Assembly: GCA_948567375.1 (NCBI GenBank)
Contig: OX419755.1
Location: 25,808,517 to 25,872,516, forward strand
DNA length: 64,000 bases
From: Lunularia cruciata
Lineage: Eukaryota > Streptophyta > Marchantiopsida > Lunulariales > Lunulariaceae
Direction: 5' to 3'
Shown here: positions 11,527 through 61,159 of the stretch, in pieces
Layout of the letters: the number at the start of each line of letters is the position of its first letter
How positions within the stretch are numbered: position 1 is the first letter of the stretch
Translations under genes and position numbers: made by a program
The notes under the pieces: generated by a model
The model's input: only the letters and a program-made list of their open reading frames with translations
Told to the model about the DNA's origin: nothing
The model's database searches: none

Positions 11527-11891
11527 TGTGGTAACCACATTTTTTTGTTTTTTTAAATAAAGGAGAAGATGTTGTAAAGAGAAGTCGGATTGCGTCTATA
11601 TGGCCGAAGAAAGTGAAGAGAGGAGTAAAGTGACTTTGGGTCATAAGGCAAAGTACTTGGAATTGTCCTGTCAGCATACAACCCGAAGCAAATTGTCTTC
11701 GGATCGGGGGGAGCTCAACCCGAGGCAAAGACAATCTAACAACCTTTTGTTGGGGCAAGAAATTCAAGAAGGGGCCGTTTGAAAATTGGCAGCTCATACG
11801 CGCGAAGGTTGATTGACAGTGATAGGTGCATGTTGGAGGTGTGATTTCTTGGTAGGAACTCAAAGTGACGGAAGACAAAGAAGCACAACTC

Positions 11892-11898
11892 TATAAAA
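11892..11898 (+). promoter_or_regulatory. Candidate TATA box ahead of ORF-L (copy D)
   Basis: TATAAAA starts 27 nt upstream of the ATG at 11919. The same spacing is seen in LTR S (43070 to 43043), and a TATAAAAT lies 34 nt upstream in LTR I. A start site about 30 nt downstream would fall at or just after this ATG, which would favour the second conserved Met at 12057. Function is inferred from position and conservation only. Confidence 0.45.
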
Positions 11899-11918
11899 AT
11901 CAAAACTGCAACGACAAA

Positions 11919-13649: not shown

Positions 13650-13970
13650 GTAGCTGAATACAAAATCTTGAAGCAGCAATTTGCTGATTCAAGAGTAGAA
13701 GTAATCCATGCTATGGCAAGGGTAGCAACAAAGGATCAAGAGCTCGATAGAGTGATGGAGAGTATGGAGGAGAAGAAGCAACTTTGGCAAAGAGAGTTGG
13801 CTGCACGGTATAGAGAAGAGGAGAGATCATGAGAGTTACTTCGTAATCAGGAAGAGAAAGTTGTACAGAAGGAGAAGGAGAAGGAGACGGTGAAAGCCGA
13901 GTTTGAGGCATAGTTGGCGATGTACCGGGAGGAATGGCTTGCAGATCGGGAATGAGAAAGGAAGACAAGA

Positions 13971-15563
13971 TTGGAGCCATTGAAGGAGATAGTCCTCAGG
14001 GTGAAGACGATGTTAAGTACGGAAGCCAGCGTTCGAATTGAAGAAGCACAACTTCACGAGTTAAAGCTGTTGGTGCAGGAGACAAGGCGCAGACAAGCGA
14101 AAGACACCAAGATGAATGCCTTGTTGATCAAATTAAGAACTTGTGTAGACAGAAAGGTTTTAGAGGTAGAGGATAACATTTCAATTAGATTAGACTTAGT
14201 GAAAATAGAGCTAGAAAAACTTCGGAAAGATGTTAGAGCAAAACCCAAAGTAGATAATATAGGAGTCCAAATGTCTTTGGAGTTACTATTAGAGACATTA
14301 GAGAAGAGTGGGTTGGGAGATAAGGAGTTTGATAGATTGCCCACTAGTGAAATTTCAGATCAGGAAAGAGAATTGCTGGATCTGGTAGAAGAAGTAGATG
14401 ATCTGAAACCCGAGGACAGAGTAGTAGGAGGTAAGATAGGTAGGAGGAGTAGTAGGATTCTTTCTTCTTCCAAGAAGAAGAAAGAATCGAGTGGGCAAAC
14501 ATATGCATTGCGGCCTAGTACACCAACTTCACCTAGAGTTGTAAAGGAAGTTGTTTCCTTGAAGAACTTTGTTCGAGAAAAGATAGCACACACACTTATT
14601 GAAGATGAGTGTCAACATCTTCTACGAACGGTTCCTCGGTTGTCCCGAAGGAATTTTGAAGAACCCATCAAAGGTGTTGATCTTGAATCTTCCACTTGGG
14701 TTGAAGCCAACACCCTCATAGCAGAAATTGTCGAAGAAGACCCTACCTTGGATTTGACGAATTGGAATCCCTGGGCTGACAACACGGCGTCAATTCCAGC
14801 CAATCCTTTAGTTCCGTCAAGTTCCACATTACCTCAGCCGATCCCAGTGCATCGAACAATGACTTTGCTGCTTGTCACCCGACACGCCTATCAAAAGTAC
14901 AAGGGGATAGAACAAGACGAAGACCCCAATGAATTCATCAAAGAATTTGAAGTCATCTTCTTTGCTAACAAGGAGCATGACTTGGCGGATGGACTGAGAA
15001 TTTTCCCAAGTTTGCTCTGCAAGAAAGCTCGGAGCTGGTACACCCATGTGACCCAGAAGGGGTTTGTACCAGCGGACTGGGCAGACTTGAGAAACAACTT
15101 CCTGACACGATTCTGGGAGGTTGATTACGACACGAGTGTCTTTGCGGCACTCAATGATTTAGACCAAGGCAAGAAGGAGAAGTTGAGAGACTACTCTGAG
15201 CGGTTCATGGCATTACTGAACCAAGTTCCCAAGCAATCGGGGGTGGTGGGTTACTCCAATGCCCAAGCCATTACCTGGTTCCTTGGGGGACTTTCACCAG
15301 AGATACGCATCTTTGCCAAGGAGAGGAATGTAACTTCCCTGTACAAAGTACTCAAACATGTCGCTCATTATGAAGCGGCTCACTCTCACTCTACCGGAAA
15401 TCGGAGAAATTGGGAGAAGAAAGGCAAGAAGCCCAGAAGGAGAGCTTTGCGCAGCACCTCCACTTCTTTGGACAAATCCTCTACGTCTTCAAGCTCTTCT
15501 TTGGAATCCGAAGAAGAATCAAAGCCAAGACGAGTCGAAGACGTGGAGGCAAGAAACCATTGA
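13971..15563 (+). CDS. gag: In-frame fusion of ORF-L coiled-coil C-terminus to gag (copy D)
   Basis: The first ~155 codons are ORF-L coiled coil (EEAQLHELKLLVQETRRR, then RIDLV-like and DQERELLDLVEE) and belong to the LTR. At about 14434-14445 the LTR sequence ends at GGAGGTAAGAT and gag begins (SSKKKKESSGQTYAL). Gag then carries the acidic EEDPTLDLTNWNPW stretch, QKYKGIEQDEDPNEFIKEF and the retrotransposon gag domain (ARSWYTHVTQKG, FLTRFWEVDYD, LRDYSERFMALLNQ, GLSPEIRIFAKERN). A frameshift near 15535 moves gag to the frame used at 15410-15742. The frame is the same as the ORF at 11865-13649. The fusion results from a deletion that removed R-U5, primer site and gag N-terminus. Confidence 0.8.
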   Translation: MEPLKEIVLRVKTMLSTEASVRIEEAQLHELKLLVQETRRRQAKDTKMNALLIKLRTCVDRKVLEVEDNISIRLDLVKIELEKLRKDVRAKPKVDNIGVQMSLELLLETLEKSGLGDKEFDRLPTSEISDQERELLDLVEEVDDLKPEDRVVGGKIGRRSSRILSSSKKKKESSGQTYALRPSTPTSPRVVKEVVSLKNFVREKIAHTLIEDECQHLLRTVPRLSRRNFEEPIKGVDLESSTWVEANTLIAEIVEEDPTLDLTNWNPWADNTASIPANPLVPSSSTLPQPIPVHRTMTLLLVTRHAYQKYKGIEQDEDPNEFIKEFEVIFFANKEHDLADGLRIFPSLLCKKARSWYTHVTQKGFVPADWADLRNNFLTRFWEVDYDTSVFAALNDLDQGKKEKLRDYSERFMALLNQVPKQSGVVGYSNAQAITWFLGGLSPEIRIFAKERNVTSLYKVLKHVAHYEAAHSHSTGNRRNWEKKGKKPRRRALRSTSTSLDKSSTSSSSSLESEEESKPRRVEDVEARNH

Positions 15564-19008: not shown

Positions 19009-19636
19009 AGTACAAGGTATGCAGCTGAATATAATTATCTGAATACTCTCCATTGTCCAGAGGGGATGGACCCGGAACAGCGGGCAGTCTTTCTAAGGAA
19101 AATGGGGCCAAACCAGCTTAAACACAGCATTTTATTTAAGATGGGCAAAGACGAAGTACTTCGGCAATGCTTGGAGTCATACAAAGTAGGAAGAGTGATT
19201 GAATCTTTACAATCCAAAGCATCGGGAGGACACTATGCTTTGAAGAATAGTGTAAAGAAAATTCTTTCGTCAGGGTATTGGTGGCCTACAATGTACAAAG
19301 ATGTACATGCTCATATCAGAAGCTGTGATGCTTGTCAGAGAAAAGGGAAGCCGATGCCTACTTCTCAATGGCCTTTGAGACCAATTTTGCCTTTGGCCCC
19401 ATTTGAGAAATGGGGGATTGATTTTGTGGGTCCCATTCAACCAATGACCCAAGTCACAAGAAAGAGATACATTTTGGTGTGCACTGACTATGCTACCAAG
19501 ATGGTCGAAGCGGAAGCAACTTGCAGAGATGATGCTAAAACTGTGGCGGAATTCTCCTTTCGAAACATCATCTCCCGATATGGGTGTCCTCTGGAATTGG
19601 TCAGTGACCAAGGAACACATTTTTTGAACACATCAA
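19009..19636 (+). pseudogene. pol: Element D: integrase, truncated before the catalytic Glu
   Basis: The segment holds the zinc-binding region (GGHYALKN, then DACQRKGKP). The first zinc His of E (SLHSEA) is Gln here (SLQSKA). The core starts at KWGIDFVGPI with catalytic Asp 1, followed by TRKRYILVCTDYATKMVEAEA and VSDQGTHFLN with catalytic Asp 2. At about 19637 the reading passes at a shared CAAT into the middle of the 3' LTR. The third acidic residue and C-terminal domain are therefore lost. E retains this missing part at 46592-47365. Confidence 0.88.
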
Positions 19637-19653
19637 TTGGGTGAGGTGTTTTC

Positions 19654-21586
19654 ATGGGAGAACAAGGCAGATGGTTTGGAATTTGCGGGATAAGTCCACA
19701 CTACATTGTGCCGTTTGTAGCACACTTCTACCTCGGGCTCAATTTATTGAACTCGGCAGAGCAGACTCGGATGGTGTCGCACTTCCATCTTGATGTGCAA
19801 AAGGAGGTCAACGTTGAGGAGCAGCAATACATTCTCCAAATCCGCAGCACGGACGACTACTACGCAAAGACAGGGAAGAACATGGAGGTCATAGTGAGTA
19901 CCTCGACAAAGAATAGGAGTCGGCAAGGAGAAGCCGAAGGAAGCAAGAAACCTCAGAAGATGCAGAGAATTAACCCAAGGCAAAGTATGGTGGTAATTGA
20001 GTCGGAAGATGAAGACTCAGAAGGCAAGGTCGTTCTCAAGAAGGGAAGATTTGGAACATGAGGAGGAACCTGAGCTGACATTGCAGAGTGGAGATACGAG
20101 CAGTGACAATGAAGAAGGAGGAGAGATGACATCGGTGCCAGCGGCTAACAAAGAAGAAGAAGAAGTGCAAGCCGAGTTGGAGGCCAAAGACAACTTGCTG
20201 TTGGAAGACAAAGTCCCGGTGCCCGAGGAAAGAAAGATCGCAGTGCAGCGAGGGGCTCGCTCAAGACGTAAGGCGAAGTGTGAAGCGGGGCCGAGTAACA
20301 TGAAGGAAGAGGCAGGAGAAAGCTTGGGCAGTGAGGCATCAATCCCGATATGAAGACTCCAGAGAAGAAGGCGAGTATCAGGAGAACACAAGGAGAGAAG
20401 AGAGACCACTCCGCGGGAGGAAGTAGTTGCCAATGATGGAGTCGAGTACCTGCAAGAGGTGGTGTGTCCTCTGTTGGTGAAACTAGAGTACAAGAAGAAG
20501 GAGATGCAGTCGACTTGTCCAGAGGTGAAGACTGTTTTGCAGGTCTTATCAAAATTAGAAGAAGAGAACTCAGAGTTGAAGAGAGGTATAACCCGAGGTG
20601 AGGAGGAGAGAGAAGTACTACGAGCGGAGGCAGTAGAGAGAAGTCAGGTAATGGAAGACCTGAAGAGGGAAGTGAACTATTGAGAGGATCTTGCGAGGAA
20701 GAGTGACATAGCAAGAGAGAGACAAGTAGCTGAATACAAAATCTTGAAGCAGCAGTTTGCTGATTCAAGAGTAGAAGTAATCCATGCTATGGCGAGGGTA
20801 GCAGCAAAGGATCAAGAGCTCGATAGAATGATGGAGAGTATGGAGGAGAAGAAGCAACTCTGGCAAAGAGAGTTGGCTGCACGGTATAGAGAAGAAGAGA
20901 GATTACAAGAGTTACTTCGTAATCAGGAAAAGAAAGTTGTACAGAAGGAGAAGGAGAAGGAGATGGTGAAAGCCGAGTTTGAGGCAGAGTTGGCGATGTA
21001 CCAGGAGGAATGGCTTGCAGATCGGGAACAAGAAAGGAAGACAAGATTGGAGCCATTGAAGGAGATAATCCACAAGGTGAACGTGATGTTAAATACGGAA
21101 GCCAACATTCGAATTGAAGAAGCACGACTGCACGAGTTAAAGCTGTTGGTGCAAGAGACAAGGTGCAGACAAGCAAAAGACACCAAGATGAATGCCTTGT
21201 TGATCAAATTATGAACTCGTGTAGACAAAAAGGTTTTAGAGGTAGAGGATGACATTTCAATTAGATTGGACTTAGTGAAAATAGAGCTAGAAAAACTTCG
21301 GAAAGATGTTAGAGCAAAACCTGAAGTAGATAATATAGGAGTCCAAATGTCTTTGGAGTTAACATCAAAGACATTAGAGAAGAGTGGATTGGGAGATAAG
21401 GAGTTAGATAGATTGTCCACTAGTGAAATTTCAGATCAGGAAAGAGAATTGCTAGATCTGGTAGAAGAAGTAGATGATCTGAAACCCAAGGACAGAGTAG
21501 TAGGAGGTAAGATTACTTCAGGTTCGGGTTTGAAAGCCAAAGAAGAAGTGACATCGGATCGGATTAGTAACAATTTTGAGATTTGA
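19654..21586 (+). pseudogene. ORF-L copy in D's 3' LTR, N-terminus missing
   Basis: Segments at 19654-20061, 19997-20353, 20459-20683, 20744-21214 and 21266-21586 follow ORF-L from HYIVPFVAHFYLGLNLL through the acidic linker to the coiled coil. Breaks are a frameshift near 20035, TGA at 20351 (CGA in the 5' copy), TGA at about 20681 (CGA in the 5' copy) and a TGA near 21211. The C-terminal coiled coil (KQLWQRELAARYREEE, then QEKKVVQKEKEKEMV) is better preserved than in the 5' copy. The coiled-coil heptads suggest self-association; this is inference. Confidence 0.78.
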
Positions 21587-21683
21587 AGAGGCAGATATGA
21601 AGAGGTGCATTGTCATTTTGGATCTGCAGGTTAGAACAGTTGTTGTAGAACGGTATAGTTGTTAGAACTGCCAATTTGTTCAC

Positions 21684-21691
21684 TATTTAAG
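21684..21691 (+). promoter_or_regulatory. Conserved LTR TATA box, copy D
   Basis: TATTTAAG in the context CACTATTTAAGAGTGGCATT. The same box occurs at matching positions in I (2883), J (5410), A (23768), S (40355), B (43611) and H (about 61830). It lies about 670 bp before the LTR end and about 100 bp after the ORF-L stop. It is the likely core promoter of the genomic RNA and marks U3/R. Confidence 0.7.
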
Positions 21692-22360
21692 AGTGGCATT
21701 TGTAGAGAAATGTTGTTCAATGCTCATTATTTCTGAGAATAGATAAAGCAAAGTGTTGTGAAGTAGTGCTCGTCGCTTGAGCTTGATTCTGAGTATCAAC
21801 TTTGCAATTGTGTTTGTGAGTGTTTGGAGAAATTCAAAGTGCAAGTCAAAGTGTTTGTTGGATGTTGGATTCCACAGCCTTGATCTTCATTCTATGTGTT
21901 TGATCCTAAGTGAAGTGCAATTGAAGCAATGCCTTGATAGATCTGAGAGGAATTGTAGTGATGGTAGTATTCTGCATTTGTGAGTGCAGTGCAAAGTTGA
22001 TGTGAAGCAATTTCAATCAAGGAAGTTGTGCCTTCAGTGGAGGGGTGGAACACAATTCTGAGGTGAAGTCATTTTGCAGTGAAGTGCCATTTTTGGGAGA
22101 GCCTGAATCATCACAATCAAGATTGTTTGGAAAGATTTGATGGAGTTGTGATTAAGAAGTGTGAATTTGTGACAAGACTGCAAATTAGTGCTTGTTTCTC
22201 TCTTCTGGGTGTGGTTTCTACCTGAGAGATTAAAGACGCAACCAAGAAGAACTGAAATTGTTACTTTGCTTTGTATTTGACCAATTCTGACTCGTATCTC
22301 TGCGGGAACAAACTTTACTTCCCCGATTACTGCAAAAGTGATATTTGCCGGGTTGTCATA

Positions 22361-22365
22361 GAACT
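22361..22365. repeat. Right TSD of element D (GAACT)
   Basis: It matches 11522-11526 exactly and lies immediately after the LTR end TGTCATA. Confidence 0.95.
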
Positions 22366-29953: not shown

Positions 29954-30001
29954 TTTACCCCCGGACTAAGTTTTCACTTTGTCCTCAAAGTGAAGGTCTC
30001 T

Positions 30002-31104: not shown

Positions 31105-31110
31105 TGCTCT

Positions 31111-35733: not shown

Positions 35734-36358
35734 TTGGGCTAAAAACCTTTCTATTCAACACACAAATTTCAGATTTGGTCTGAAAACCACCCCCCTCACT
35801 TCCAAAACTTATAACTTCCTGCACAAGAACAATCTCTCTCTAATTTTTGTGGCAGCAGGTATTATACAATGCACTGAATTGTCTTGGAAATTTTCAGAAG
35901 AATTCATTGAAAATTGAACAAATGGCATACTCTGTACAATTTTCCAGAGAGCATGCAGTTGCGGGAGCACTTTACCCTATCAACTTTCAAAAATTCTAGC
36001 CTAGTGCGCATAGTAGCTCTCACAATAATTTTAGATGTTCTAACTGAAAGGTAACCCAAGCTATCATGTGTAGAAATTTCAAGTCCAGATCTCAAACTTG
36101 AGATTTTGCCCAAAATCACCTTAATCCCCAAATCTACAATCCACCTCACACAATCTCTCCAATTCCTCTCATGTGTACAAGATGTACAAAATCACCTCAA
36201 AGACATCATAATGAACTACAGGGTATACAAATAGATCTTGTTTCTCTAACATAAGTTAAGCCCTCTCCTCTCCTAATATCCTCTCCAAGTGAACTCTCAT
36301 AGCCTCCTTCTGCCTAATGTAGAATTGAACGCGGAACATTATCTTGCCTTCTAGAGAG
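35734..36358 (-). other. Element K leader between primer site and extra ORF
   Basis: 625 bp of AT-rich leader without a convincing gene. It presumably holds the 5' UTR and packaging signals of the genomic RNA; none can be recognised. Similarly 34814-35048, between the extra ORF and gag, shows no gene. Confidence 0.5.
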
Positions 36359-36376
36359 GTCCCGGCAACGGAACCA
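36359..36376 (-). other. Primer-binding site of element K (tRNA-Asp-like)
   Basis: The minus strand reads TGGTTCCGTTGCCGGGAC, four bases after the 5' LTR. It matches the 3' end complement of plant tRNA-Asp (TGGCGCCGTTGCCGGGGA) at most positions, from memory of that tRNA. Confidence 0.75.
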
Positions 36377-36380
36377 AAAA

Positions 36381-37072
36381 TGTGAGCCGGCCTGTCTCTC
36401 ACTCAAGATGAACCTCTGATGGCTATTATGGTAGCGCACCATGGACTAAGAAGGCACGGAACCCAAACTCCATTATACTCTTCCAAGGCTAACACTCCAA
36501 GACTCAAGACATTGCTCACTAGAGAACTCAATGAGAGAGAGATAGTTGCAAATGAAAGGATGATGAGTACCTCCTCACCCCTTGTTTATATACTTGTGAA
36601 ATAGTTACGTACCAAAGTTACTAATTACCATAGTAACTCAAGTTACTAGACTAAAAGTCAAGTAAAGTCAAAAAGTAGAAAGGAATATCCATTCACATGG
36701 GCATATTCCCCTAAGCATGTGGTCTTATCTTGACCCAACCACTAAGTCAAGGATTCCTTCACATGGGCTATCCTTGGACTAAAGAAGAATCCAAAACAAA
36801 AAGGCTTGCGGGCCCAAGAGTTCTCAACTCTTTCCTCAAAGCCAAACACCTAGGAATAATACCAAGTCAACACACTAAAATCCAAAATAGTGGTGCTCAT
36901 CTTTTCTACTTCCTCTAAAGTAAGGTCCCCTCTATCTTAGCTATGACTAACTTTAGCTAACCATGACTAATATAGAACCATCCTTTATCTCTATATAAAT
37001 AGTATCTCTTAAGTACTTGTAATACCAAGCTAAATATCACAATACCACACACATGCACAAATGGGTGTTACA
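36381..37072 (-). repeat. Element K 5' LTR (692 bp)
   Basis: The plus strand reads TGTGAGCCGGCC to GGGTGTTACA, near-identical to 29263-29953. It is flanked on the right by GATCC (37073-37077), the probable TSD. Confidence 0.93.
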
Positions 37073-39680: not shown

Positions 39681-39685
39681 CTTAC
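39681..39685. repeat. Left TSD of LTR S (CTTAC)
   Basis: CTTAC occurs before TGTGACAACCC and again at 43457-43461. Confidence 0.95.
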
Positions 39686-40354
39686 TGTGACAACCCGGCA
39701 AATATCACTTTTGCGGTAATCGGGTAAGTAAAGTTTGTTCCCGCAGAGATACGAGTCAGAAATGTCCAAATACGAAGCAAAGTAACAATTTCAGTTCTTC
39801 TTGAGTTCTTCTTTAGTCTCTCAGGTAGAAACCACACCCAGAAGAGAGTAACAAGCACTGACTCGCAGTCTTGTCACAAATTCACACTCCTTAATCACAA
39901 CTCCATCAAATCTTTCCAAACAATCTTGATTGTGATGATTCAGGCTCTCCCAAAAACGGCACTTCACTGCAAAACGACTTCACCTCAGAATTGTGTTCCA
40001 CTCTTCCACTGAAGGCACAACTTCCTCGATCAAAATTGCTTCACATCAACTTTGCACTGCACTCACAAATGCAGAATACTACCAACACTACAATTCCTCT
40101 CAGATCTGTCAAGGCATTGCTTCGATTGCACTTCACTCAGGATCAAACACAGAGAATGAAGATCAAGGCTGTGGAATCCAACATCCAACAAGCACTCTGA
40201 CTTGCACTTCAAATTTCTCCAAACATTCACAAACACAATTACAAAGTTGATACTCGGAATCAAGCTCAAGCGACGAGCACTGCTTCACAGCACTTTGCTT
40301 TATCTATTCTCAGAAATAATGAGCACTGAACAACAATTTCATGCGAATGCCACT

Positions 40355-40362
40355 CTTAAATA
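40355..40362 (-). promoter_or_regulatory. Conserved LTR TATA box, copy S
   Basis: TATTTAAG on the minus strand, 670 bp before the LTR end and 118 bp after the ORF-L stop; the same context as in D, I, J, A and B. Confidence 0.7.
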
Positions 40363-40479
40363 GTGAAGCAAATTGACAGTTCTAACAACTATACCGTTCT
40401 ACAACAACTGTTCTAACCTGCAGATCCAAAATGACAATGCACCTCTTCATATCTGCCCCTTTAAATCTCAAATCGGTTA

Positions 40480-42915
40480 CTAATCCGATCCGATGTCTAC
40501 TTCTTCCTTGGCTTTAAAACCCGAACCCAAAGTAATCTTACTTCCTACTATTCTGTCCTTGGGTTTCACAACTCCTACATCTTCTACCAAATCCAACAAT
40601 TCTCTTTCCTGATCTGAAATTGCACTAGCGGGTAATCTATCTAACTCCTCATCCTTCGACCCACTCTTCTCTAATGTCTCTGAGGGCAACTCCAAAGAAA
40701 TTTGGATCCCGATGTTATCTACTTCGGGTTTTGCTTTAACATCCTGCCGAAGCTTTTCTAACTCTATTCTTACTAAGTCTAATCTAATCGCGATATTGTC
40801 TTCTACTTCTAAGATCTTCCTATCTACACGAGTTCTCAATTTAATCAACAAGGCATTCAAATCTGTATCTTTTGCTTGTCTTCGCCTCGTCTCCTGCACC
40901 AACAACTTCAACTCGTGCAGACGTGCTTCTTCAATTCGAACGCTGGCCTCTGTACTTAACATCGCGTTTACCCTGAGGACTATCTCCTGCAATGGCTCTA
41001 ATCTTGTCTTCCTTTCTCGTTCCCGATCTGCAAGCCATTCCTCTCTGTACATCGCCAATTCTTCTTCGAATTTGGCCTTCACCGCATCCTTCTCTTTCTC
41101 CTTCAGTGCAACCTTCTCTTCCTGATTACGAAGTAAGTCTCGTAATCTCTCTTCTTCTCTATATATCGCAGCCAACTCTCGCTGCCAGAGTTGCTTCTTC
41201 TCTTCCATACTCTCCATCACTCGATCGAGCTCTTGATCCTTCGATACTACCCTCGCCATAGCATGGATGAGCTCTACTCTTGAATCAGCAAAGTGCTGCT
41301 TCAAGATTTCAAATTCAGCTACTTGTCTCTCCCTTGTGACGTCACTCTTCCTCGCAAGATCCTCTCAATAGCTCACTTCTCTCTTCATGTCTTTGATTAC
41401 TTGACTTCTCTCTACTGCTTCCGCTTGTAGTACTTCTCTCTCCTTCTCACCTCGGGTTATACTCTTCTTCAACTCCGAGTTTTCTTCTTCTAATCTCGCT
41501 ACCACCTGCAATACAGTCTTTACCTCTGGACAAGTCGACTGCATCTCCTTCTTCTTCTTCTCCAACTTCACCAACAGCGGGCATACTACCATCTGCAGGT
41601 AATCTACTCCATTACTGATACCTTTGTCCTCCCGCGGAGTAGTCTCTCTTCTTTCTTCGTGTTCTCCCGATACTCGCCTTCTTCTCTGGAGTCTTCATAT
41701 TGAAATTGATGCCTCACTGCCCGAGCTTCCTTCTACCTCTTCCTTCACTCTACTCGGTCCCGCTTCCCACTTCGCCTTACGTCTTGAGCGAATTCCTCTC
41801 TGTACTGCGATCTTCTTCTCCTCGAGCACCGGTACTTCGTCTTCCAGCGCCGCATTGTCTTCGGCTTCTACTTCGGCTTGAATTTCTTCTTCATATTCTT
41901 CAGCCGCTGGTGCCGAGGTCATTTCTCCACCGTCTTCACTGTCACTGCTTGTATCTCCGCTCTGCAGTGTCAGCTCAGGTTCCTCCTCACATTCCGAGTC
42001 CTTCGTCTTGAGCTCGGCTTCGCCTTTTGAGTCTTCATCTTCCGACTCAATCACCACCATTCCTCGCCTCGAGTTATTTTTCTGCATCTTCCAAGGTTTC
42101 TTGCTTTCTTCGGCGTCTACTTGCCGAGTTCTCTTCTTTGTCGGGATACTTTCAACGACCTCCACGTTCTTCCCTATCTTCGCGTAGGAATCGTCTGTGC
42201 TCCGGATTTGGAGAATGTATTGCTGCTCCTCCGCGTCGACTTCTCTTCTCAAATCAGGATGGAAATGAGACACCATTCGATTACGCTCAGCCACATTGAG
42301 CAGATTTAACCCGAGGTAAAAATGGGCTGCAAATGGTACAATGTAGTGTGGAGGTGACTTATCTCGCAGATTCCACACCATCTGCCTCGTTCTTTCGTGA
42401 AAGCACCTTGCCCAATTTATCGGTTCTCCTGCAAATAACTTGTGAAAGAACACCGCTTGGTGTTTCATCACATAGGTAGTTCTCTCCGGCTTCAGGAGGG
42501 CCATTAGTGCACTCACAATTCCCCTCCTCATTGGGTCCTTATAACTCTCAACTTTATACCCATTCTTTGTCCTCTTCGACGAGAAGGCATCTCTCACCTC
42601 CTACGTTTCTTGGGCTATCTCTCCTTTCCCCAAGAACATGGCTCCCTGCTCCGAGCTTGCTTCCTTCCCGAGTATGAGTCTCCAATCCAACTCTGTCCAG
42701 CGAGCCGGATTTCCTCTCTTCCCTTCTTCCTCGGGACCATCGAGACATTTACTCTCGATGAGTTCTGTCATGAATCCTAGAAAACTTATGTTCCAATTCC
42801 ATGCCAAAAAGGTGATCCAAAGTTGGCTCAAGACTTCGATCCTCGCTACTACATCTAATCTCCGAATTGCATGATTTCTCATTGCAAATTCGGAGTTCTT
42901 CTTCCCTCCTCCCAT
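40480..42915 (-). CDS. ORF-L in LTR S: one frame of 811 codons with three stop codons
   Basis: This is the best copy of the LTR-encoded protein. From Met 42915 (MGGGKKNSEF) to the stop at 40480 the frame never shifts. It is broken only by TAG at 42598-42600 (CAG in D), TGA at 41692-41694 and TGA at 41362-41364 (both CGA in D's 5' LTR). Residues ~1-230 are a conserved globular region with LWITFLAWNWN, KPERTTYVM, FFHKLFAGE, PPHYIVPFAAHFYLGLNLL and EEQQYILQI. A Lys/Glu/Ser linker (~230-440) and a long coiled coil (~440-811, with EEKKQLWQRELAAIYREEER) follow. The upstream Met at 43043 is conserved, but S has a short deletion between it and 42915. No membrane segment, no nucleic-acid-binding motif that I recognise. 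Role unknown. Confidence 0.8.
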
Positions 42916-43060
42916 CTCTTCTACTTTCTTTCGATCTCTCTCTTGACTTCTCCCTTATGCACTAACACAAGTCCAACTCTATTTCCCTTTCCCCGATCAC
43001 CTGCAAGACAACTCCTCAACGGCGAAGGAAAATTGCTCGACATTTCGTCATTGCAGTTTC

Positions 43061-43070
43061 AATTTTTATA
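43061..43070 (-). promoter_or_regulatory. Candidate TATA box ahead of ORF-L (copy S)
   Basis: TATAAAAATT on the minus strand starts 27 nt before the ATG at 43043 and 155 nt before the Met at 42915. The spacing is the same in D (11892 to 11919). Promoter function is inferred. Confidence 0.45.
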
Positions 43071-43456
43071 GAGTTGCACTTCTTCGTCTTCCGTCACTTC
43101 GAGTTTCTACCGAGAAATCACACCTCCGGCATGCACTTTTCACTGTCACCCCATGTTTGTGCGTATGAGCCGCCAATTTTGAAACGGCCCCTTCTTGAAT
43201 TTCTCACTCCGACAAAAGGTTGTTAGACTGTCTTTGCCTCGGGTTGAGCTCCCCCCGAGCCAAAGACAATTTACTTCGTATTGTATGCTGACACGGCATT
43301 TCAGAGTACTTCGCCTTATGACCCAAAGTCACTTTACTTTGGGTTTCACCCCGAAGACAGTTTTCTTCGTCTTCTTTGGCCAAACAGGCGCAATCCGACT
43401 TCTCTATACACTTCTTCTCCTTTATTTTGAAAAAAACAAAAAATGTGGGCACCACA

Positions 43457-43461
43457 CTTAC
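43457..43461. repeat. Right TSD of LTR S (CTTAC)
   Basis: A perfect copy of 39681-39685; the LTR of C resumes after it. Confidence 0.95.
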
Positions 43462-44033: not shown

Positions 44034-46629
44034 TGTGACAACCCGGAAAATATCACTTTTGCGGTAATCGGATAAGCAAAGTTTGTTCCAATAGAGATAC
44101 GATTCAAAATTGGTCAAATACGAAGTCAAACAGTAACTTGTAGTTCTTCTTGATTTCTTCTTGATTTCTTCTTTAATCTCTCAAGTAGAAACTTCACCCG
44201 GAAGAGAGTAACAAGCTCACAATCTTGACAACTTGTCACAAATACACACACACATAATCACAACATAGCAAATTCTGTCCAAACAACTCTTGATTGTGAT
44301 GATTCAAATTCTCCCAAAGATGGAACTTCACTTTGAAGAATGATTTTGCCTCAGAATTGTGTTCCATCCCTCCACTGAAGGCACAACTTCCTCAATCAAA
44401 ATTGCTTCACGTCAACTTCGTGATGCACTCTTCTTCAAGCTGTCCAACTCCTGCTCCATTATTGTTGCTGTCGCCTTCAAATGAATATTCTCGATGCGCA
44501 CATCACTCACTTCCTCCTTCATTTTGCTCAGCCACATCGCCTGCTCCTTCAATTCCCCTGCTTGCTTCTACAGTTCTTTCCCTCTTGACTCGTAGCTCTC
44601 TTGTAACATCGCAAAAGTCTTCTTCTTCAAGACTTCTTCCCTCTGAAGTTCTCCAATTTCTTCATTTCTTTGGACTTGTTGCTCCCGCAACCCCTTCACT
44701 TCACCACCTACAACTCATTCATCACCTTTCTACAATCTTGGGGAATTACTTTCCAATGCTCCTTCAATAGCTCTAGCAACGGTGGACAACCTTTGTTAGA
44801 TACAGTATCCCACCAAAGTTATCTTCATCTTTGTCACCGTCTTTGTCTTTGTACTTTGGCTCCTCCATTGGCTCCTTTTGCCAAAGTCGTGATCTTTGTA
44901 TCTTCAGAAACACTGCTTTTGAACTCTCTTCTCCTTTAACAATTGAACTCGGCTCCGCAGGATACTACTCCTTTTCCTCTGGTCTCTGCTTATCCATCAC
45001 CAGGGCTACGCAATGACTCGTTGTTCTTGGTACTTTTTCAATCATTGCATGACAAGCTTCACTGACTCCCACTGCTTGTTGAACCTTAGGTTTCCCCTCA
45101 CTCTCACTTCTAGACTCCTCACTTTGTAAGGTGAGTTCATCCTCTTCTGATTCCTCTCCTTGCGACTCCGTTTCTTCTTTAGACTCTGATTTCAATGATG
45201 CTTTTCTCACCATTTTCTTACTCTGCACAACCAGTCTTCGAGTCTTCCTTTGAGTTGGAAGTAACTTTGCTTCTTTGGGTTTACTGCGCTTCTTCTTCTC
45301 TGGACTTGTGACTTCTTCCATCTTCCATTGTCATGTCTTCAAGAAGTGTTCATCATTGGCTCGCAAGTGTGTCATATATTGTCGCTCTTCTTCATCCGCT
45401 TTGCGTCTTAAATCAGGATGGAAATGGGACACCATGTGATGTCTCTCCTCCATTGTTAGCAAATTCAACCCGAAGTAGAAGTGTGTTGCAAATGGTGCAA
45501 AATAATGGGGAGGCAAACTTGTCCTCCAATTGATCACCATCTGCCTCGTTTGGTGGTGAAAACACTTTGCTCAATTCACCTTTACCCCTGTAAACATCTG
45601 GTGGAAGAAGACCGTTTGCTGCATGTTCACGTAAGTTGTTCATTCATGGCCATCATTGCCCCCACAATACTTCTCCTAATTGGATCCCGATAGGACTTCA
45701 CCTTGTAGCCATTTGTGGTTCTTGGAGCAAAGAAAGAGTTTTGGATTTCCGTCGTCTCTTTTGCAGCATCACACTTCCAATAGAAGGTGATCCCCGTTGG
45801 TTCTCTTGCTTCCTTCCCCAACACTAACCTCCAATCCAACTCAGTCCATCAAGCCAAATTTCCTCTCTTCTCTTCAACTTCGGGACCTTCCTCACAATTA
45901 CTGGCACCTATCTCTACCATCACTCTTGGGAAACTGAAATTCCAATTCCATGCTAAAAATGTAATACAAAGTCTATTCAAGACCTCAATTTTGGCTACCA
46001 CATCTAACCTACAAATTGCAAAGCTTCACACTGCCAGAGCATTTATGACCTTCTTTGCCATGATCTGCTCTCTCGTTCTTCGACATTGAAAGATGATGCC
46101 CTCTCTTGGACGAGACACTCTGACCCCTTCTAGATTTTGGAAAATTGCACTCTCAATTGGCTTTTGGACATGCATTATTGCAAGACGACTACTCAAAGGA
46201 ATTGGAAATTTACTTGGCATATTTAACTTGTCCCTGCGCAATTGCAATTTTATATTACCCCAAATTGCAGTCATTCTTAAGTTGATTTCAAATTCGACTT
46301 TCCCTCTTCTGCGTGTTGATGTCGTGTCACTGTCAAGACATGCTTCTTTTGCCTCCGCTGTTTCTTGAAGTGTACTTTCTTGCTACGTACCAAGGTTGTT
46401 AGACAATCTTCATATCACCTACGCTTCTCGACCTAAAGACAATGCTCTTTGGACTTTTTTCCATCATATCCCTCTTCTTAGTACCTCCATCATCAGATCC
46501 AATCTCGCCTTCTTGGGATTTCCTCCATAGTCACTTCCATCCATTCTTCTTTTTCAATTCGGCTTTTTGTGCTTACTTCTTCCCTCAAATGCTAATAAAT
46601 AGAAAAAACCACAAAATGTGGGCACCACA
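44034..46629 (-). repeat. Element E 3' LTR (2,596 bp, shortened)
   Basis: TGTGACAACCC to GGGCACCACA on the plus strand. Compared with S it lacks about 1.1 kb. The joint at about 44430 lies at GAGTGCAGC, a 9-bp word that occurs both in ORF-L and in R (compare 2040 and 3179 in LTR I). The TATTTAAR box is lost. R-U5 is 44034-44430. Confidence 0.92.
44434..46216 (-). pseudogene. ORF-L remnant in E 3' LTR
   Basis: On the minus strand it starts at the conserved Met near 46216 (MPSKFPIPLSS), followed by GVRVSRPREGIIFQC, MAKKVINALAV, then 45839-45627 (DWRLVLGKEA, TFYWKCDAAKETTEI, NGYKVKSYRD), 45540-45331 (FAPFATHFYFGLNLL, SHFHPDLRRKADEEE), 45321-44965 (charged linker) and coiled coil to about 44434. 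Stops and shifts are frequent. The C-terminal half of the coiled coil is removed by the LTR deletion. Confidence 0.78.
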
Positions 46630-47365
46630 TACCTCCTCTCTCAAATGTGAGCATCCCCGCAAACACCGACAACCGGGTCTTTATACAAATTGGGTTTGGG
46701 GTCCAATATTTTCTTACACTCCACCCATTGATGCAAGTGGCAAAAGGATTGCTGCCCAGGTCTGCCAATTGAATAGAGCCATTGACATAAATGTACATCA
46801 CGCGATACGGCCCCATCCACCTCAAATGTAATTTTCCTGGAAAAAATAGGCGGTGATTGTCATACAACAATACCAAGTCCCCCCCTTGAACAGCCACATG
46901 TTTGATTCTTTTATCATGCCTAACCTTCCATTGTTCTTGAATTTCCTTTGTAGTTTGCATTGCATCATCCTTTTTCTCTTCTAACCACATCAGTTGATGG
47001 ATCCAAAGATCTTGGCTTTCTTCCTCCGACAAGCGTTCTTCACAAAGAATTTGATATGTTGGTACTTCAAAATCAATTGGTGATATAGGATGCAATCCGT
47101 ATGTCAGGAAGTAAGGAGTTTGCTTGGTACTAATCTTTTCAGTTGTTTGATATGCCCACAAAGCTGCAAGTAACTTTGTGTCCCAGTCATAGGTATAATT
47201 GATTGTCACCTTATTCAAAATTTTGCACAACAATCCATTGGCCTTCTCCGTGAGTCCATTCACTTTTGGGTTGTAAGGCGTGGTCTTCCGATGTTTAATT
47301 TGGAAGTACTTGGTTAACGCTTCCACCATTGAGTTCAAAAAATGGGTTCTCCGATCACTGACCAA
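46592..47365 (-). CDS. pol: Element E: integrase core end and C-terminal domain
   Basis: This open stretch of 257 codons starts at VSDRRTHFLNSMVEALTKYF (catalytic Asp 2), then TTPYNPKVNGLTEKANGLL (catalytic Glu in TEKAN), LLAALWAYQTTEKISTKQTP, and a C-terminal part KHVAVQGGDLVLLYDNHRLF, LHLRWMGPYRVMYIY (GPY motif). The frame runs past the purine tract and ends about 40 bp inside the LTR. D lacks this whole region. It is the only full integrase C-terminus of family G here. Confidence 0.9.
   Translation of the reverse strand: MVSDRRTHFLNSMVEALTKYFQIKHRKTTPYNPKVNGLTEKANGLLCKILNKVTINYTYDWDTKLLAALWAYQTTEKISTKQTPYFLTYGLHPISPIDFEVPTYQILCEERLSEEESQDLWIHQLMWLEEKKDDAMQTTKEIQEQWKVRHDKRIKHVAVQGGDLVLLYDNHRLFFPGKLHLRWMGPYRVMYIYVNGSIQLADLGSNPFATCINGWSVRKYWTPNPICIKTRLSVFAGMLTFERGGMWCPHFVVFSIY
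46630..46642 (-). other. Polypurine tract of element E
   Basis: The minus strand reads GAGAGAGGAGGTA, directly before the LTR start TGTGGTGCCC. This is the plus-strand primer position and fixes the LTR boundary. Confidence 0.85.
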
Positions 47366-52856: not shown

Positions 52857-52874
52857 TCCCCGGCAGCGGTGCAA
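52857..52874 (-). other. Primer-binding site of element E (tRNA-Asp-like)
   Basis: The minus strand reads TTGCACCGCTGCCGGGGA, seven bases after the LTR end. It agrees with the tRNA-Asp type TGGCGCCGTTGCCGGGGA at 15 of 18 positions. Confidence 0.75.
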
Positions 52875-54820
52875 AAAATTGTGTGACAACCCGTCAAATA
52901 TCACTTTTATGGTAATCGGGTAAGTAAATTTTGTTCTTGTAGAGATACAATTTAGAATTGGTCAAATACAAAGTCAAACAGTAACTTGTAGTCCTTCTTG
53001 ATTTCTTCTTTAATCTCTTAGGTAGAAACTCCACCCAGAAGAGAGTAACAAGCTCATAATCTTGACAACTTGTCACAAATACACACACACATAATCACAA
53101 CATAGCAAATTCTGTCCAAACAACTCTTGATTGTGATGATTCAGATTCTCCCAAAGACGGCACTTCACTTCAAAGAACGATCTCACCTCAGAATTGTGTT
53201 CCACCCCTCCACTAAAGGCACAACTTCCTCGATCAAAATTGCTTCACATCAACTTCGTGCTGCACTCTTCTTCAAGCTGTCCAACTCCTGCTCCATTATT
53301 GCTGCCGTCGCCTTCAAATGAATATTCTTGATGCGCACATCACTCACTTCCTCCTTCATTTTGCTCAGCCACATCGCTTGCTCCTTCAATTCCCCTACTT
53401 GCTTCTGGAGTTCTTTCCCTCTTGACTTGCAACTCTCTTGTAATATCTCAAAAGTCTTCTTCTTCAAGACTTCCTCCCTCTGAAGTTCTCCTATTTCTTC
53501 ATTTCTTTGGACTTGTTGCTCCTGCAACCCCTTCACTTCACTCAACAGATGCTTCGCCACCTGCAACTCATTCATCACCTTTCTACAATCTTGGGGAATT
53601 ACTTTCTGATGCTCCTTCAGTAGCTCCAACAACGGTGTGACAACCTTTGTTAGACACAGTATCCCACCAAAGTAATCTTCATCTTTGTCACCATTTTCAT
53701 CTTCAGCTCCTCCATCGTCTTCAGCTCCTCCTAAACTTCAGCTCCTCCATTGGCTCCTTCTGCCGAAGTTGCGATCCTCGTATCTTTAGAGACACCACTT
53801 TTGAACTCTTTTCTCCTTTAACAATTGAACTCGGCTCCGTAGGATACTCCTCCTTTTCCTCTGGTCTCTGCTTATCTACCACCAGGGCTACACAATGACT
53901 TGTTGTTCCTGGTACTCTGTCAATCATCGCATTACAAGCTTCACTGACTCCCACCACTTGCTGAACCTCAAGTTCCCCCTCACTCTCACTTCCACACTCC
54001 TCACTTTGTAAGGTGAGTTCATCCTCTTCTGATTCCTCTCCTTGCGACTCCGTTTCTTCTTCAGACTCTGATTCCGATGATGCTTTTCTCACCATCTTCT
54101 TACTATGCACAACTAGTCTTTGAGTCTTCCTTTGAGCTGAAGTTGACTTTGCTTCTTTGGGTTTACTGCGCTTCTTCTTCTTTGGACTTGTGACTTCTTC
54201 CAGCTTCCATTGTCATGTCTTCAAGAAGTGTTCATCATTGGCTTGCAAGTGTGTCATATATTGTCGCTCTTCTTCATCCGCTGTCGTTGGGAAAATAGCC
54301 CACGTGTACCCTTGAGGCTTTTGGTGTGATAAATTTTCTTTTCTCTTTTATTTGTTGTAAGGAACATGGATTTATGATAATATGTCTCGGGTGTGGTTTT
54401 GCTACCTGGTTTTGGGAGAAAGTGAGGAGACAGAGAAGGGCTGAGGGTTTTCACAAAATGCCAAAAGATTTCGAGAGGGTTTAGCAGAGGATTTTGAGAG
54501 GAGTGGCAGAAATTTCCGAGAGAAGAAAGGAGTATGGTTTTTTTTTGAAAAGGGACAGAGGAGTTTCAAGAGAGCAAGGGGTTTTTTTTTTCGGGAATGA
54601 CAGGAGGAGTTTGGGGGCAGAGGACAGAAGGTGGGCAGGAAGGAAGTGAATCGAAAGGGATTGGAATGATCATGAAGGAGTAGTCAGGAAGGCTTTTTAG
54701 GGACAGAGGAAAAATCAGGAGAGGAAATTTTGAGTTGGACAGGAGAGGGTTTGGCAGGAGGAGAAATTCTCGAGAAGCTAGAGGGTTTGGACAGAGGAAC
54801 ACACACAAGAGAGAAATTTT

Positions 54821-55107
54821 TGAGTTGGACAGGAGGGCTTGAGAGTGCAGGGGAGAAAATTTCTCGAGAACTGAAGGGTGGAAGAGAGGAACAATCAGGG
54901 CCAGGATTTTCGAGTTGGACAGGAGGGCTTGAGAGTGTAGGGGAGAAAATTTCTTGAGAACTGAAGGGTGGAAGAGAGGAACAATCAGGGCCAGGATTTT
55001 GGAGTTGGACAAGAGGGCTTGAGAGTGCAGGGGAGAAAATTTCTCAAGAACTGAAGGGTGGAAGAGAGGAACAATCAAGGCCAGGATTTTTGAGTTGGAC
55101 AGGAGGG
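54821..55107 (+). repeat. 90-bp tandem repeat in X
   Basis: The word GAGTTGGACAGGAGGG recurs at about 54822, 54912, 55002 and 55092, an exact 90-bp period. Each unit holds GAGAAAATTTCTCGAGAACT and AGGAACAATCAGGGCCAGG. Confidence 0.88.
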
Positions 55108-55978
55108 GTGAGAGTGCAGGGCTGTGCTTGGACCAGGAGAGGAATTTCAAAATGTTAGAGTGCAGGGCTGTGCTTGGACCAGGAGAGAAATTTCGAAATG
55201 TGAGAGTGCAGGACTGTGTTTGGACCAGGAGAGGAATTCTGAAATGTGAGAGTGCAGGGCTGTGCTTGGACCAGCAGAGGAATTCTGAAATGTGAGAGTG
55301 CAGGGCTGTGCTTGGACCAGGAGAGGAATTTTCGAAATGTGAGAGTGCAGGGCTGTGCTTGGACCAGGAGAGGAATTTCGAAATGTGAGAGTGCAGGGCT
55401 GTGTTTGGACCAGGAGAGAAATTTCGAAATGTGAGAGTGCAGGGCTGTGTTTGGACCAGGAGAGGAATTCTGAAATGTGAGAGTGCAGGGTTGTGCTTGG
55501 ACCAGGAGAGGAATTCTAAAATGTGAGAGTGCAGGGCTGTGCTTGGACCAGGAGAGGAATTTTCGAAATGTGAGAGTGTAGGGCTATGCTTGGACCAGGA
55601 GAGGAATTCGAAATGTGAGAGTGCAGGGCTGTGCTTGGACCAGGAGAGCAAGTTTGAAATGTGAGAGTGCAGGCTGTGTTTGGACCAGGAGAGGAATTTC
55701 AAAATGTGAGAGTGCAGGGCTGTGCTTGGACCAGGAGAGCAATTTCGAAATGTGAGAGTGCAGGGCTGTGCTTGGACCAGGAGAGCAATTTTGAAATGTG
55801 AGAGTGAAGGCTGTGTTTGGACCAGGGGAGGAATTCTGAAATGTGAGAGTGAAGGCTGTGCTTGGACCAGGAGAGGAATTTCGAAATGTGAGAGTGCAGG
55901 GCTGTGCTTGGACCAGGAGAGCAATTTCGAAATGTGAGAGTACAGGGCTGTTTTGGACCAGGACAGAAATTTTGAAAT
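55108..55978 (+). repeat. Array of about 19 units of 44-47 bp in X
   Basis: The unit is GTGAGAGTGCAGGGCTGTGC followed by TTGGACCAGGAGAGGAATTT and CGAAAT. Units vary by single-base indels (44, 46, 47 bp). The array gives long open frames on both strands because the unit has few stops in any frame. These are not genes. Confidence 0.9.
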
Positions 55979-56330
55979 GTGAAGGGAGTATTGAAGGGCT
56001 GAAGGCTTTTGGAGATGCCTTAGGACTGTGTTTTGGACCAGGATAGGAATTTTTGAAATGTGAAAGGAGTCTTGAAGGCTGAAGGTTTTCAAGATGCATG
56101 AGGGCTGTGTTTTGGACCAGGACAGAAATTTTGAAATGTGAAGGGAGGTTTGAAGGGCTGAAAGCTTTTGGAGATGCCTTAGGACTGTGTTTTGGACCAG
56201 GATAGGAATTTTCGAAATGTGAAAGGAGTCTTGAAGGGCTAAAGGCTTTTGGAGATGCCTTAGGACTGTGTTTTGGACCAGGATAGGAATCTTCAAAATG
56301 TGAAATGAGTCTTGGAAGCAGATTTGTGTT
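55979..56330 (+). repeat. Four units of about 80 bp in X, extended forms of the 46-bp unit
   Basis: Units start near 55979, 56059, 56138 and 56219. Each has GTGAA(A/G)GGAG, GAAGGCTTTTGGAGATGCC-like and GTGTTTTGGACCAGGA parts. The second half is homologous to the 46-bp unit. 56331-56709 is unique with no gene found. Confidence 0.8.
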
Positions 56331-57950
56331 ATGAATTGTGACTAGAGTTGAGGAAACTCCATTCTAGGATCTCTCAGTCTGGTCCAGGTGAAAAGCATAA
56401 TTAAATGATTTGAGTGCCGGATTTATGTTCAGTTAGATCACTCAATTGTTGTTTATTTTATTTTATCAAAGGGCCACCAGACCTAGGTCTATGAACTGCC
56501 AGATCCCGAACCATAGCTTGAACCTGACGAGAAAATAGGATATGAGACCAAGCAGAAGTAGAAACCATAACACCAGCCTCGCATGACAAGATTGGTTTTA
56601 CAAAAGTCAAGGATAAAACAAAACCTTCAGGGTGAGTCAACCTCAGGAAAACTAAGCACAAGCAGCCATGTGCTCGGCGCACTCTCAAGACCGAACGTTC
56701 CCCACGACACCGCTTTGCGTCTTAAATCAAGATGGAAATGGGACACCATGCAATGCCTCTCCTCCATTGTTAGCAAATTCAACCCGAAGTAGAAGTGTGC
56801 TGCAAATGGTGCAAAATAATGGAGAGGTGAACCTATCCTCCAATTGATCACCATCTACCTCGTTTGGTGGTGAAAACACTTCGCCCAATTCACCTTTACC
56901 CCTACAAACATCTGGTGGAAGAAGACCGCTTGTTGCATGTTCACATAAGTTTTTCACTCTGGCTTGAACATGGCCATCATCCCCCCCACGATACTTCTCC
57001 TAATCGGATCCCGATAGGACTCCACCTTGTAGCCATTTGTGGTTCTTGGAGCAAAGAAAGAGTTTTGGATTTCCTCCGTCTCTTTTGCAGCATCACACTT
57101 CCAATAGAAGGTGATCCCCATTGGTTCTCCTGCTTCCTTTCCTAATACTAACCTCCAATCCGACTCAGTCTGTCAAGCCGGATTTCCTCTCTTCCCTTCA
57201 ACTTCGGGACCTTCCTCACAATTACTGGCACCTATCTCTGCCATCACTCTTGTGAAACTGAAATTCCAATTCCATGCTAAAAACATAATACAAAGTCTAT
57301 TCAAGATCTCAATTCTGGCTACCACATCTAACCTATGAATTGCAAAACTTTGCACCGCCAGAGCATTTGTGACCTTCTTTGCCATGATCTGCTCTCTTAT
57401 TCCTCAACATTGAAAGACGATGCACTCTCTTGGACAAGACACTCTAACCCCTTCTAGATTTCAGAAAATTGCACTCTCAATTGGCATCCAGACATGCATT
57501 ACTGCAGGACGACTACTCAAAGGATTGGAAATTTACTTGGCATATTTAACTTGTCCCTACGCAATCGCAATTTTATATTACCCCAAATTGGAATCATTCT
57601 TCAATTGATTTCAAATTTGACTTCCCCTCTTCTGCGTGTTGATGTCCTATCACTATCAAGACATGCTTCTTCTACCTCCACTGTTTCTTGAAGTGTACTT
57701 TCTTGCCATGTACCAAGGTTGTTAGACGGTCTTTGTATCACCTGCGCTTTTCGACCCGAAGATGATGCTCTTCGGAATTTTTCCATCGTACCTCTCTTCT
57801 GAGTACCTCCATCATCAGATTTGATCTCGCCTTCTTTGGATTTCCTCCAAAGTCACTTCCATCTATTCTTCTTTCGCAATTCGGCTTTCCATGCTTACTT
57901 CTTCCCTCAAATGCTAATAAATAGAAAAAACCAAAAAAGTGGGCACCACA

Positions 57951-60154: not shown

Positions 60155-61159
60155 CCTTATGTAATATTGTTCATCTGCATCCACATCTTGACTTAGATTG
60201 GAGTGAAAGTGCAACACCATTTCTCCCCTCTTCTTTGAGCTTAGTAAGTTCAATCCCAAATAGAAATGGGGTGCAAACGGCATAAAGTAGTGGGGTGGCA
60301 AGTCTAGCCTCCAACCCCCAATCATCCGGCCTACTCTCTAGTGAAAGCACTTTGCCCAATCCACCTTGTCCCATGCAAACATTTGGTGAAATCTTTGTTA
60401 TAGAGATGGCTTAAACATTGCCATTAGAGCCCTAACTATATGTCACCTTATTGGGTCTTTATAAAAATCTACCTTGTACCCATTCTTAGTGCAAAGAGCA
60501 CTAAAAGAATTCCTCACCTCTACAATCTCCTCCAAAGGATCACAGTTCCAATAAAATGTGACTCCTCCTACTTCTCTCACTTCTCTTCCCAAGACTAACC
60601 TCCAATCCAACTTAGTCCATCAAGCTAAATTTCTTCTCTACAATCTCCTCCAAAGGATCACACTTCCAATAGAAGATGACTCCTCCTACTTCTCTCTCCC
60701 CAAGACTAATCTCCAACCCAACTCAGTCCATCAAGCTAAATCTCTTCTCTTTCCTTCTGTCTTGGGGCCATCCTCACAATTATTGGCAGTTATTTCTGCC
60801 ATGAATCCTCAAAAACTTAGGTTCCAATTCCATGCTAAAAATGTGATCCAAAGTCTACTCAAGACTTTGATTGTTGTCTCTACATTCAATCTCCAAATTG
60901 CCAGACTCTTCACCGCAAGTGAAGGTTTCTCCTTACTACCCTTTGCAGGCATTGTGTGTGTTCTAATCCTTGGTCTTTGAAAGATTAAACCCTCACTTGG
61001 CCCCAAGATTCTAACTCCTTCAAGACAACTATTAAGAGGTATAGGATATTGTCCAGACATTTTAGATATTCATCAACAAAGTCTTAATTTTATAGTGTTC
61101 TACTGCATAGTCATTCTTCAATCAATTTGCAATTGACACTCATAGGTTTTGTGTGTCTT
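60155..61159 (-). pseudogene. LTR B, segment 4: ORF-L N-terminus
   Basis: On the minus strand the conserved Met is at 61060 (MSGQYPIPLNSCLEGVRIL, then GPSEGLIFQ), followed by LAIWRLNVETTIKVLSRLW and FLAWNWNLSF to 60809, and by decayed pieces down to 60171 (GLEARLATPLLYAVCTPFLF, a shifted HYFxPFA region). A TATAAAAT lies upstream of the Met near 61085-61095, as in other copies. The LTR is cut at 61160 by LTR H. Confidence 0.78.
60520..60750. repeat. 118-bp tandem duplication in LTR B
   Basis: CTACAATCTCCTCCAAAGGA occurs at 60520 and 60638, with both copies running to CATCAAGCTAAAT. It duplicates the TFYWKCD-type part of ORF-L. Confidence 0.88.

Follow-up and report, generated by a model that had tools for sequence, protein, structure and literature searches.

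Some animal retroviruses carry a protein-coding gene in the unique 3' (U3) part of the long terminal repeat (LTR), where it is duplicated together with the LTR; one of these LTR-internal genes is sag of mouse mammary tumor virus (MMTV), whose product is a membrane glycoprotein. Ogre-type elements, which belong to the non-chromovirus Ty3/Gypsy elements, have an extra sense open reading frame (ORF), ORF1, of unknown role, between the LTR and gag. Here we describe ORF-L, an 811-codon frame located inside a 3,771-bp LTR, LTR S, in a stretch of 64,000 nucleotides from the liverwort Lunularia cruciata (assembly GCA_948567375.1, contig OX419755.1, positions 25,808,517 to 25,872,516). This whole stretch is called the window, and coordinates refer to it.

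ORF-L resembles MMTV sag in being a gene inside an LTR, its U3 position being deduced from promoter boxes, and differs from Sag in its length of 811 residues, in lacking a membrane segment, in having a long predicted rod-like coil, and in belonging to a plant Ty3/Gypsy element. Ogre ORF1 lies upstream of gag, whereas in an element carrying ORF-L (copy L025) about 90 bases separate the LTR from the start of the gag frame. According to two papers (PMC7264820, PMC11963269), elements of the Tat clade have antisense ORFs (aORFs), namely Grande gene23, RIRE2, and Retand ORF4 (TRP28, PF04195); some of the encoded proteins match SMC or Mis12 models, and the Grande protein is located in the nucleus and expressed from a promoter of its own. 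Like ORF-L, these aORFs are extra genes, and they are kept in most copies, but those of Grande and Retand are antisense and located between pol and the 3' LTR, whereas ORF-L is in sense orientation within the LTR. In the survey, Retand LTRs measure 315-1,194 bp, compared with 3.8 kb for S, and TRP28 is reported only from flowering plants (PMC11963269). No match of ORF-L to PF04195 was obtained at E values up to 10 with two open-frame ORFs and 30 alignment members, although very weak matches may be lost in the HMMER filters. The env-like ORFs of Athila and SIRE elements share with ORF-L the sense orientation and the position downstream of pol in the RNA, but they are placed in the internal region (PMC7264820), whereas ORF-L is part of the LTR and lacks a membrane segment. 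More generally, three papers place the extra ORFs of plant LTR elements in the internal region (PMC7264820, PMC6317226, PMC11963269), and two grass papers speak of the LTR as non-coding. A limited search of the open-access literature, outside which most subscription papers lie, turned up no plant paper on an LTR-encoded protein, so this is no proof of absence.

On re-reading the sequence, LTR S (39686..43456, minus strand) proved to be a complete solo LTR, as the original prediction had claimed: it has TGTG...CACA ends, is flanked by a perfect CTTAC target-site duplication (43457..43461 and 39681..39685), and contains neither an internal region nor a gag or pol frame. Its sense strand reads as ORF-L at 40480..42915 (minus strand), with 811 codons plus a stop and three internal stops in this copy; the start and the stop codon are both inside the LTR.

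Copies of ORF-L were sought in the 565,766,749-base assembly, which comprises 74 contigs, eight large ones (C1, C2, C6, C7, C8, C10, C11, and C12) totaling about 558 Mb. The last 600 bases of LTR S have at least 40 near-full-length genomic matches with 97-100% identity. Twenty of these loci, excluding the window's own copy, were taken with their flanks; ten contain complete S-type LTRs, seven another LTR type, and three incomplete S-type LTRs (L013, L017, and L023). Adding S itself and three LTRs from five neighboring stretches to the ten complete ones gave 14 full-length S-type LTRs, and in three of them (L021, L026, and L029) a single uninterrupted stop-to-stop frame of 878 codons is present, which equals 811 codons when counted from the methionine (Met) of the original prediction. 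A protein search of the genome placed these three among the 8 stop-free copies of the 52 best-scoring ones, the others carrying one to five stops; the 52 copies have 93-100% identity, and 49 of them retain the 878-codon length, in a sample biased by having been picked by search score. In a neutral simulation, a stop was present in 59% of frames at 1.1% divergence and in 99% at 5%. Judged from the individual open-frame copies, the stops belong to single copies, and with 52 near-full-length copies scored and 33 relatives of the N-terminal domain in the window and the loci (31-80% identity, many with stops), ORF-L is not confined to a few copies. The frame can stay fully open even in a solo LTR, as shown by L026, which is flanked by its duplication. 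The occurrence of an 811-codon frame inside LTR S is more than chance, and ORF-L is a real gene.

Comparisons between copies reveal selection on the encoded protein. Relative to L021, mismatches in the closest copy, L025, are spread flatly over the three codon positions (23/25/21), and copies of other subfamilies have an excess at third positions (A5, 109/83/221; E3, 56/41/98; J, 66/50/108). The ratio of nonsynonymous to synonymous substitution rates (dN/dS) of ORF-L is 0.18-0.25 between two S types and against A, 0.115 for L026-E3, 0.15-0.17 for A5 versus E3 and J, and 0.23 for E3-J, the L026-J value not being computable because dS is saturated. Between subfamilies the ratio is thus 0.115-0.25 and not near 1, the outcome that the original prediction had listed as speaking against a gene. 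Recent or same-type pairs gave 0.39-0.75, in line with a decay of copies after insertion. As controls in four pairs, the two frame offsets gave 0.84-1.62 and two antisense frames 0.85-1.73; the antisense frame that shares the third positions of ORF-L gave 0.30-0.35, an echo of the coding frame. By segment, again in four pairs, dN/dS is 0.09-0.14 in the N-terminal domain (about 260 residues, 42127..42915, minus strand, codons 68-325 of the 878-codon frame), 0.10-0.17 in the coil, and 0.30-0.36 in the linker between them; over the N-terminal domain and the coil, dS is 0.28-0.74 and dN 0.03-0.08. For pol, the ratios are 0.22-0.25 versus A, 0.125 versus E, 0.14 for A-E, and 0.37-0.47 among S-type elements. 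The N-terminal domain and the coil are under purifying selection roughly as strong as that on pol, the two sets of ratios not being strictly comparable.

Protein constraint begins at the Met from which the original prediction had counted, and this part of the proposed frame extent stands; the open frame itself, however, starts 67 codons earlier. An upstream in-frame Met was considered as the protein start and dropped, there being no clear protein constraint in that part. The sequence immediately ahead of this Met (42916-43053, LTR ~404-541) has a dS of 0.07-0.17 without clear protein constraint, and is perhaps a promoter-proximal or RNA element.

The carrier of ORF-L is an LTR retrotransposon with paired ends, a target-site duplication, a primer-binding site (PBS), and a purine tract. 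Three elements, X25 (L025 and L029), X21 (L031 and L021), and X28 (L028 and L030), have the ORF-L-bearing LTR at both ends and gag-pol between them, so that the two ORF-L copies per provirus that had been expected are actually seen; X25 and X21 each retain an open frame in one copy. The Kimura two-parameter distances between the paired LTRs are 0.023 (X25), 0.026 (X21), and 0.036 (X28), with mostly transitions. A PBS-like site, TGGCGCCG(T/C)TGCCGGGGA, is located between the LTRs, and the coordinates of X25 give its internal region a length of about 6.2 kb. Among the 52 best ORF-L copies, the distance within two same-strand pairs is 9.95 kb, as would be expected for the two LTRs of a single element; in two more pairs it is 9.0 and 10.2 kb. 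Six of 11 S-type copies have a 5-bp duplication on both sides (solo LTRs), two are followed by the PBS, and three come after the purine tract; L014 begins with TATG.

Matches to RVT_1 and RNase H were found in L025 and in the window elements A and E, a gag domain match in A, and integrase domains in A in the frame after RNase H (in L029 partial and below the cut-off); a protease match in L025 was also below the cut-off. A second RNase H domain marks the Tat lineage of Ty3/Gypsy elements; L025 has a single RNase H, and in element A 57 bases separate the RNase H frame from the integrase frame, which leaves no room between the two. With gag, reverse transcriptase, RNase H, and then integrase, the carrier is a Ty3/Gypsy element. 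Its pol matched 32 proteins in a large protein collection, the best being from the liverwort Riccia sorocarpa, with 68% and 74% identity over 76% and 40% of the query for the two best matches.

A search for homologues of ORF-L, using two open-frame ORFs and an alignment of the N-terminal domain as queries, yielded nothing credible in Pfam, in PDB sequences, or in the large protein collection; in one of the searches of that collection, scoring covered the 7,991 candidates with the most shared words. The few Pfam matches below the cut-off (E 0.05-0.2) were to unrelated families. Since pol, as a positive control, finds Riccia sorocarpa, liverwort proteins are present in that collection; annotated protein sets often omit transposon genes, however, so the absence of an ORF-L homologue is weak evidence. 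For the coil region, a model built on the L026 copy and transferred to S by alignment has a mean predicted local distance difference test (pLDDT) score of 78 and predicts a continuous rod helix of 265 residues (40735..41529, minus strand), with block pLDDT of 72-97 along the helix. Heptad periodicity is significant at residues 510-620 (0.4% of shuffles). The linker is both acidic and basic, with basic clusters resembling nuclear localization signals, and the tail is variable. No membrane segment was detected in ORF-L, the highest 19-residue Kyte-Doolittle mean being 1.12.

ORF-L lies between two conserved TATA boxes. The upstream box is P1 (TATAAA, 43065..43070, minus strand, LTR 387). Of 14 copies taken from different families, among them E3 and E5, the two LTRs of one element, 12 have TATAAA 141-196 bases ahead of the N-domain start, one has TATAAG, and one has no box. 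The downstream TATA-like box, P2 (TATTTAA, 40356..40362, minus strand, LTR 3095), is the proposed promoter of the genomic RNA. Of 11 LTR ends, some of them placed by eye, 9 have this box at a distance of 667-684 bases from the end, as TATTTAA in eight and TATAAA in one. This arrangement suggests a short mRNA from P1 and genomic RNA from P2, so that ORF-L most likely lies in U3 and has its own promoter. The U3 placement of the original prediction thus stands as regards the position inside the LTR and between two conserved boxes, with U3 itself deduced from those boxes.

Alternatively, the genomic RNA could start at P1, which would put ORF-L in the repeat and unique 5' (R/U5) part as the first frame ahead of the PBS and gag, with gag reached through splicing or re-initiation. 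This arrangement, which we consider unlikely, is favored by the better TATA match of P1 and its presence in 12 of 14 copies, by the absence of P2 from both LTRs of E, and by the continuation of the ORF-L frame into gag in element A. It is opposed by the second TATA box kept after ORF-L in 9 of 11 LTR ends and, weakly, by the finding that the divergence between S types falls to the level within types from about LTR 3000, fitting a start of R there, although the excess is patchy within ORF-L too. An R repeat of about 3 kb would also be odd. As for element A, the frame at 13971-15563, in which the ORF-L coil runs in frame into gag, lacks the LTR 3' end, the PBS, and the leader, and most likely results from a local deletion. 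A fusion or splicing of ORF-L to gag was considered for this frame and rejected: the junction keeps donor-like bases, and among 40 places scored the window's own copy was the only one of its kind.

Taken together, we assign a probability of about 0.7 to the interpretation of ORF-L as a true accessory gene that a Ty3/Gypsy element carries wholly inside its LTR, in sense orientation and most likely in U3. In the proposed mechanism, P1 would drive a short unspliced ORF-L mRNA and P2 the genomic RNA, and each LTR, including a solo one, could be a self-contained gene. With less confidence, we propose that the ORF-L protein may act in trans, inside the nucleus, by forming a rod-shaped oligomer; the N-terminal domain would bind a partner, be it element DNA, RNA, or chromatin, and thereby aid transcription or integration of the element. 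We give about even odds to such a trans-acting accessory role of ORF-L in the nucleus; in its build, the protein is similar to the antisense accessory products of Grande and Retand.

Several points weigh against this interpretation. In ORF-L, dS is higher than in pol in like comparisons (0.54 versus 0.23 for A), which is why their dN/dS values are not strictly comparable. Little or no protein constraint is apparent in the last 78 codons (dN/dS 0.42-1.0) or in codons 22-67 ahead of the Met (0.34-1.33). The N-terminal domain has no recognizable fold, so its partner is guesswork: it is predicted to be helical, with a pLDDT of 49 that does not allow interpretation as a fold, and Foldseek with this model gave no match at E <= 0.001. 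In the coil, heptad periodicity was not significant in the five other windows of six tested. Both LTRs of E lack the P2 box, and P1 could drive the genomic RNA instead. The LTR also yielded no convincing cluster of binding sites, VANC-like motif clusters included: one 7-mer occurs four times in the first 540 bases (reached by 4.5% of shuffles), no 7-mer stands out in the last 800 bases (26.5% of shuffles), and the word CTTCTTC, present 19 times in the whole LTR and thus above all 200 shuffles, is read as reflecting the purine runs of the coding part. Finally, LTRs that have lost most of ORF-L have also spread. Such an LTR type of about 1.89 kb was found at 7 of the 20 loci (L011, L018, L019, L020, L022, L024, and L027); it has the last 1.0 kb in common with S and has lost nearly all of ORF-L, and its copies are 91-95% identical in pairs. 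Six of the seven have clear 5-bp duplications and are therefore solo LTRs. Two of the seven were scanned for TATA boxes: in L024 the second box is present and TATAAA is missing, and L011 has TATAAA at LTR 758, no second box, and an open ORF-L tail of 112 residues. The spread of these LTRs implies that ORF-L is not needed in cis.

Other explanations of the frame were weighed against that of an accessory gene. Some Athila and SIRE elements have sense ORFs for which an env-like product has been proposed, and an env-like nature of ORF-L would agree with the sense orientation, the position after pol in the RNA, and the coiled coil; with no hydrophobic segment above a 19-residue mean of 1.12 and with basic clusters that suggest the nucleus, we regard it as very improbable. 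Slightly lower still is the likelihood of a captured host gene in decay, without a role for the element. The lack of relatives in Pfam, PDB, or the protein collection is compatible with such a capture, but purifying selection between copies whose N-terminal domains are only about 44-63% identical (E3 and J versus L026), together with the many copies, contradicts it, and likewise the host pseudogene in few copies that the original prediction had envisaged as a way to be wrong. That the frame is open merely through the base composition of a purine-rich strand has next to no chance of being correct: the antisense strand also holds frames of 200-300 codons, but four of the five other frames have dN/dS of 0.84-1.73, and a neutral frame nearly always has a stop at 5% divergence. 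The sequence could also act in cis as RNA or regulatory sequence, the protein being irrelevant. Codons 22-67 before the Met, where the dS of 0.07-0.17 is a sign of constraint at the base level, fit this view, which may hold for the 5' leader; for the main part of ORF-L it is contradicted by the dS of 0.28-0.74 and dN of 0.03-0.08 in the N-terminal domain and the coil, which indicate protein constraint, so as a general explanation it is highly improbable.

The S-type LTRs also differ among themselves in ORF-L. By their distance over LTR 800-3000, the 14 LTRs split into groups of six and eight, and all 71 fixed differences between the two types, 46 synonymous and 25 not, lie at LTR 865-2839, inside ORF-L; this count leaves out gapped positions, and the grouping used the same region, which favors differences inside ORF-L. 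The divergence of X25 from X28 is 3.0-5.2% in the 800-base stretches compared in the internal region and 3.3-7.7% in the last 580 LTR bases, but within ORF-L it reaches as much as 15% per 400 bases. It looks as if diverged stretches of ORF-L have been exchanged between related elements under purifying selection.

BLAST confirmed that the window holds further LTR-type relatives of S. Element A has a 5' LTR whose 3' end is deleted into gag (11527..14437, plus strand; ORF-L about 85% identical to that of S) and a 3' LTR without its 5' part (19626..22361, plus strand). Element E has, on the minus strand, a 3' LTR with a degenerate ORF-L (44034..46629) and a 5' LTR with a degenerate ORF-L and a tandem array (52882..57950); its purine tract (46630..46642) and its PBS region (52857..52874), which the original prediction had cited as confirming the LTR boundaries, are both where they had been placed. 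About 2.4 kb with tandem repeats in the 5' LTR of E (54282-56710) are absent from its 3' LTR. The last frame of E (46592-47365) had no Pfam match, and it extends through the purine tract and a further 38 bases into the 3' LTR (46592-46629). Remnants of the ORF-L N-terminal domain occur in a further LTR, J (424..1095, plus strand; BLAST and N-domain match), and in a divergent family (60158..60940, minus strand; 45% identity, 8 stops). A different gag-pol element occupies 29263-37072; its 0.7-kb end repeats are 97.8% identical, the 1,457 codons read contain three internal stops, and two more copies of its end repeat lie near 9218-10887.

Plant LTRs are commonly treated as non-coding, and a conserved 811-codon gene in an LTR makes such annotation unsafe. 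It also changes the status of a solo LTR, which may be a live gene. In a more far-reaching version, which we consider doubtful, every LTR with an open frame, including the solo ones, would be a complete small gene, made up of P1, ORF-L, and a presumed end signal. The rod protein encoded by it would be nuclear and would act in trans on related LTRs, for instance by counteracting their silencing. The model for this version is the VANC anti-silencing proteins, factors acting in trans that are encoded by Arabidopsis VANDAL transposons. If this were true, many dispersed solo LTRs would keep supplying the factor to full elements and to freeloading LTRs without ORF-L, and this supply could help explain repeated bursts of Ty3/Gypsy elements in the lineage. 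The large Lunularia genome is ascribed to such bursts in the literature (PMC9985172), and ORF-L is a concrete candidate for how an element family spread in a genome whose size is attributed to them.

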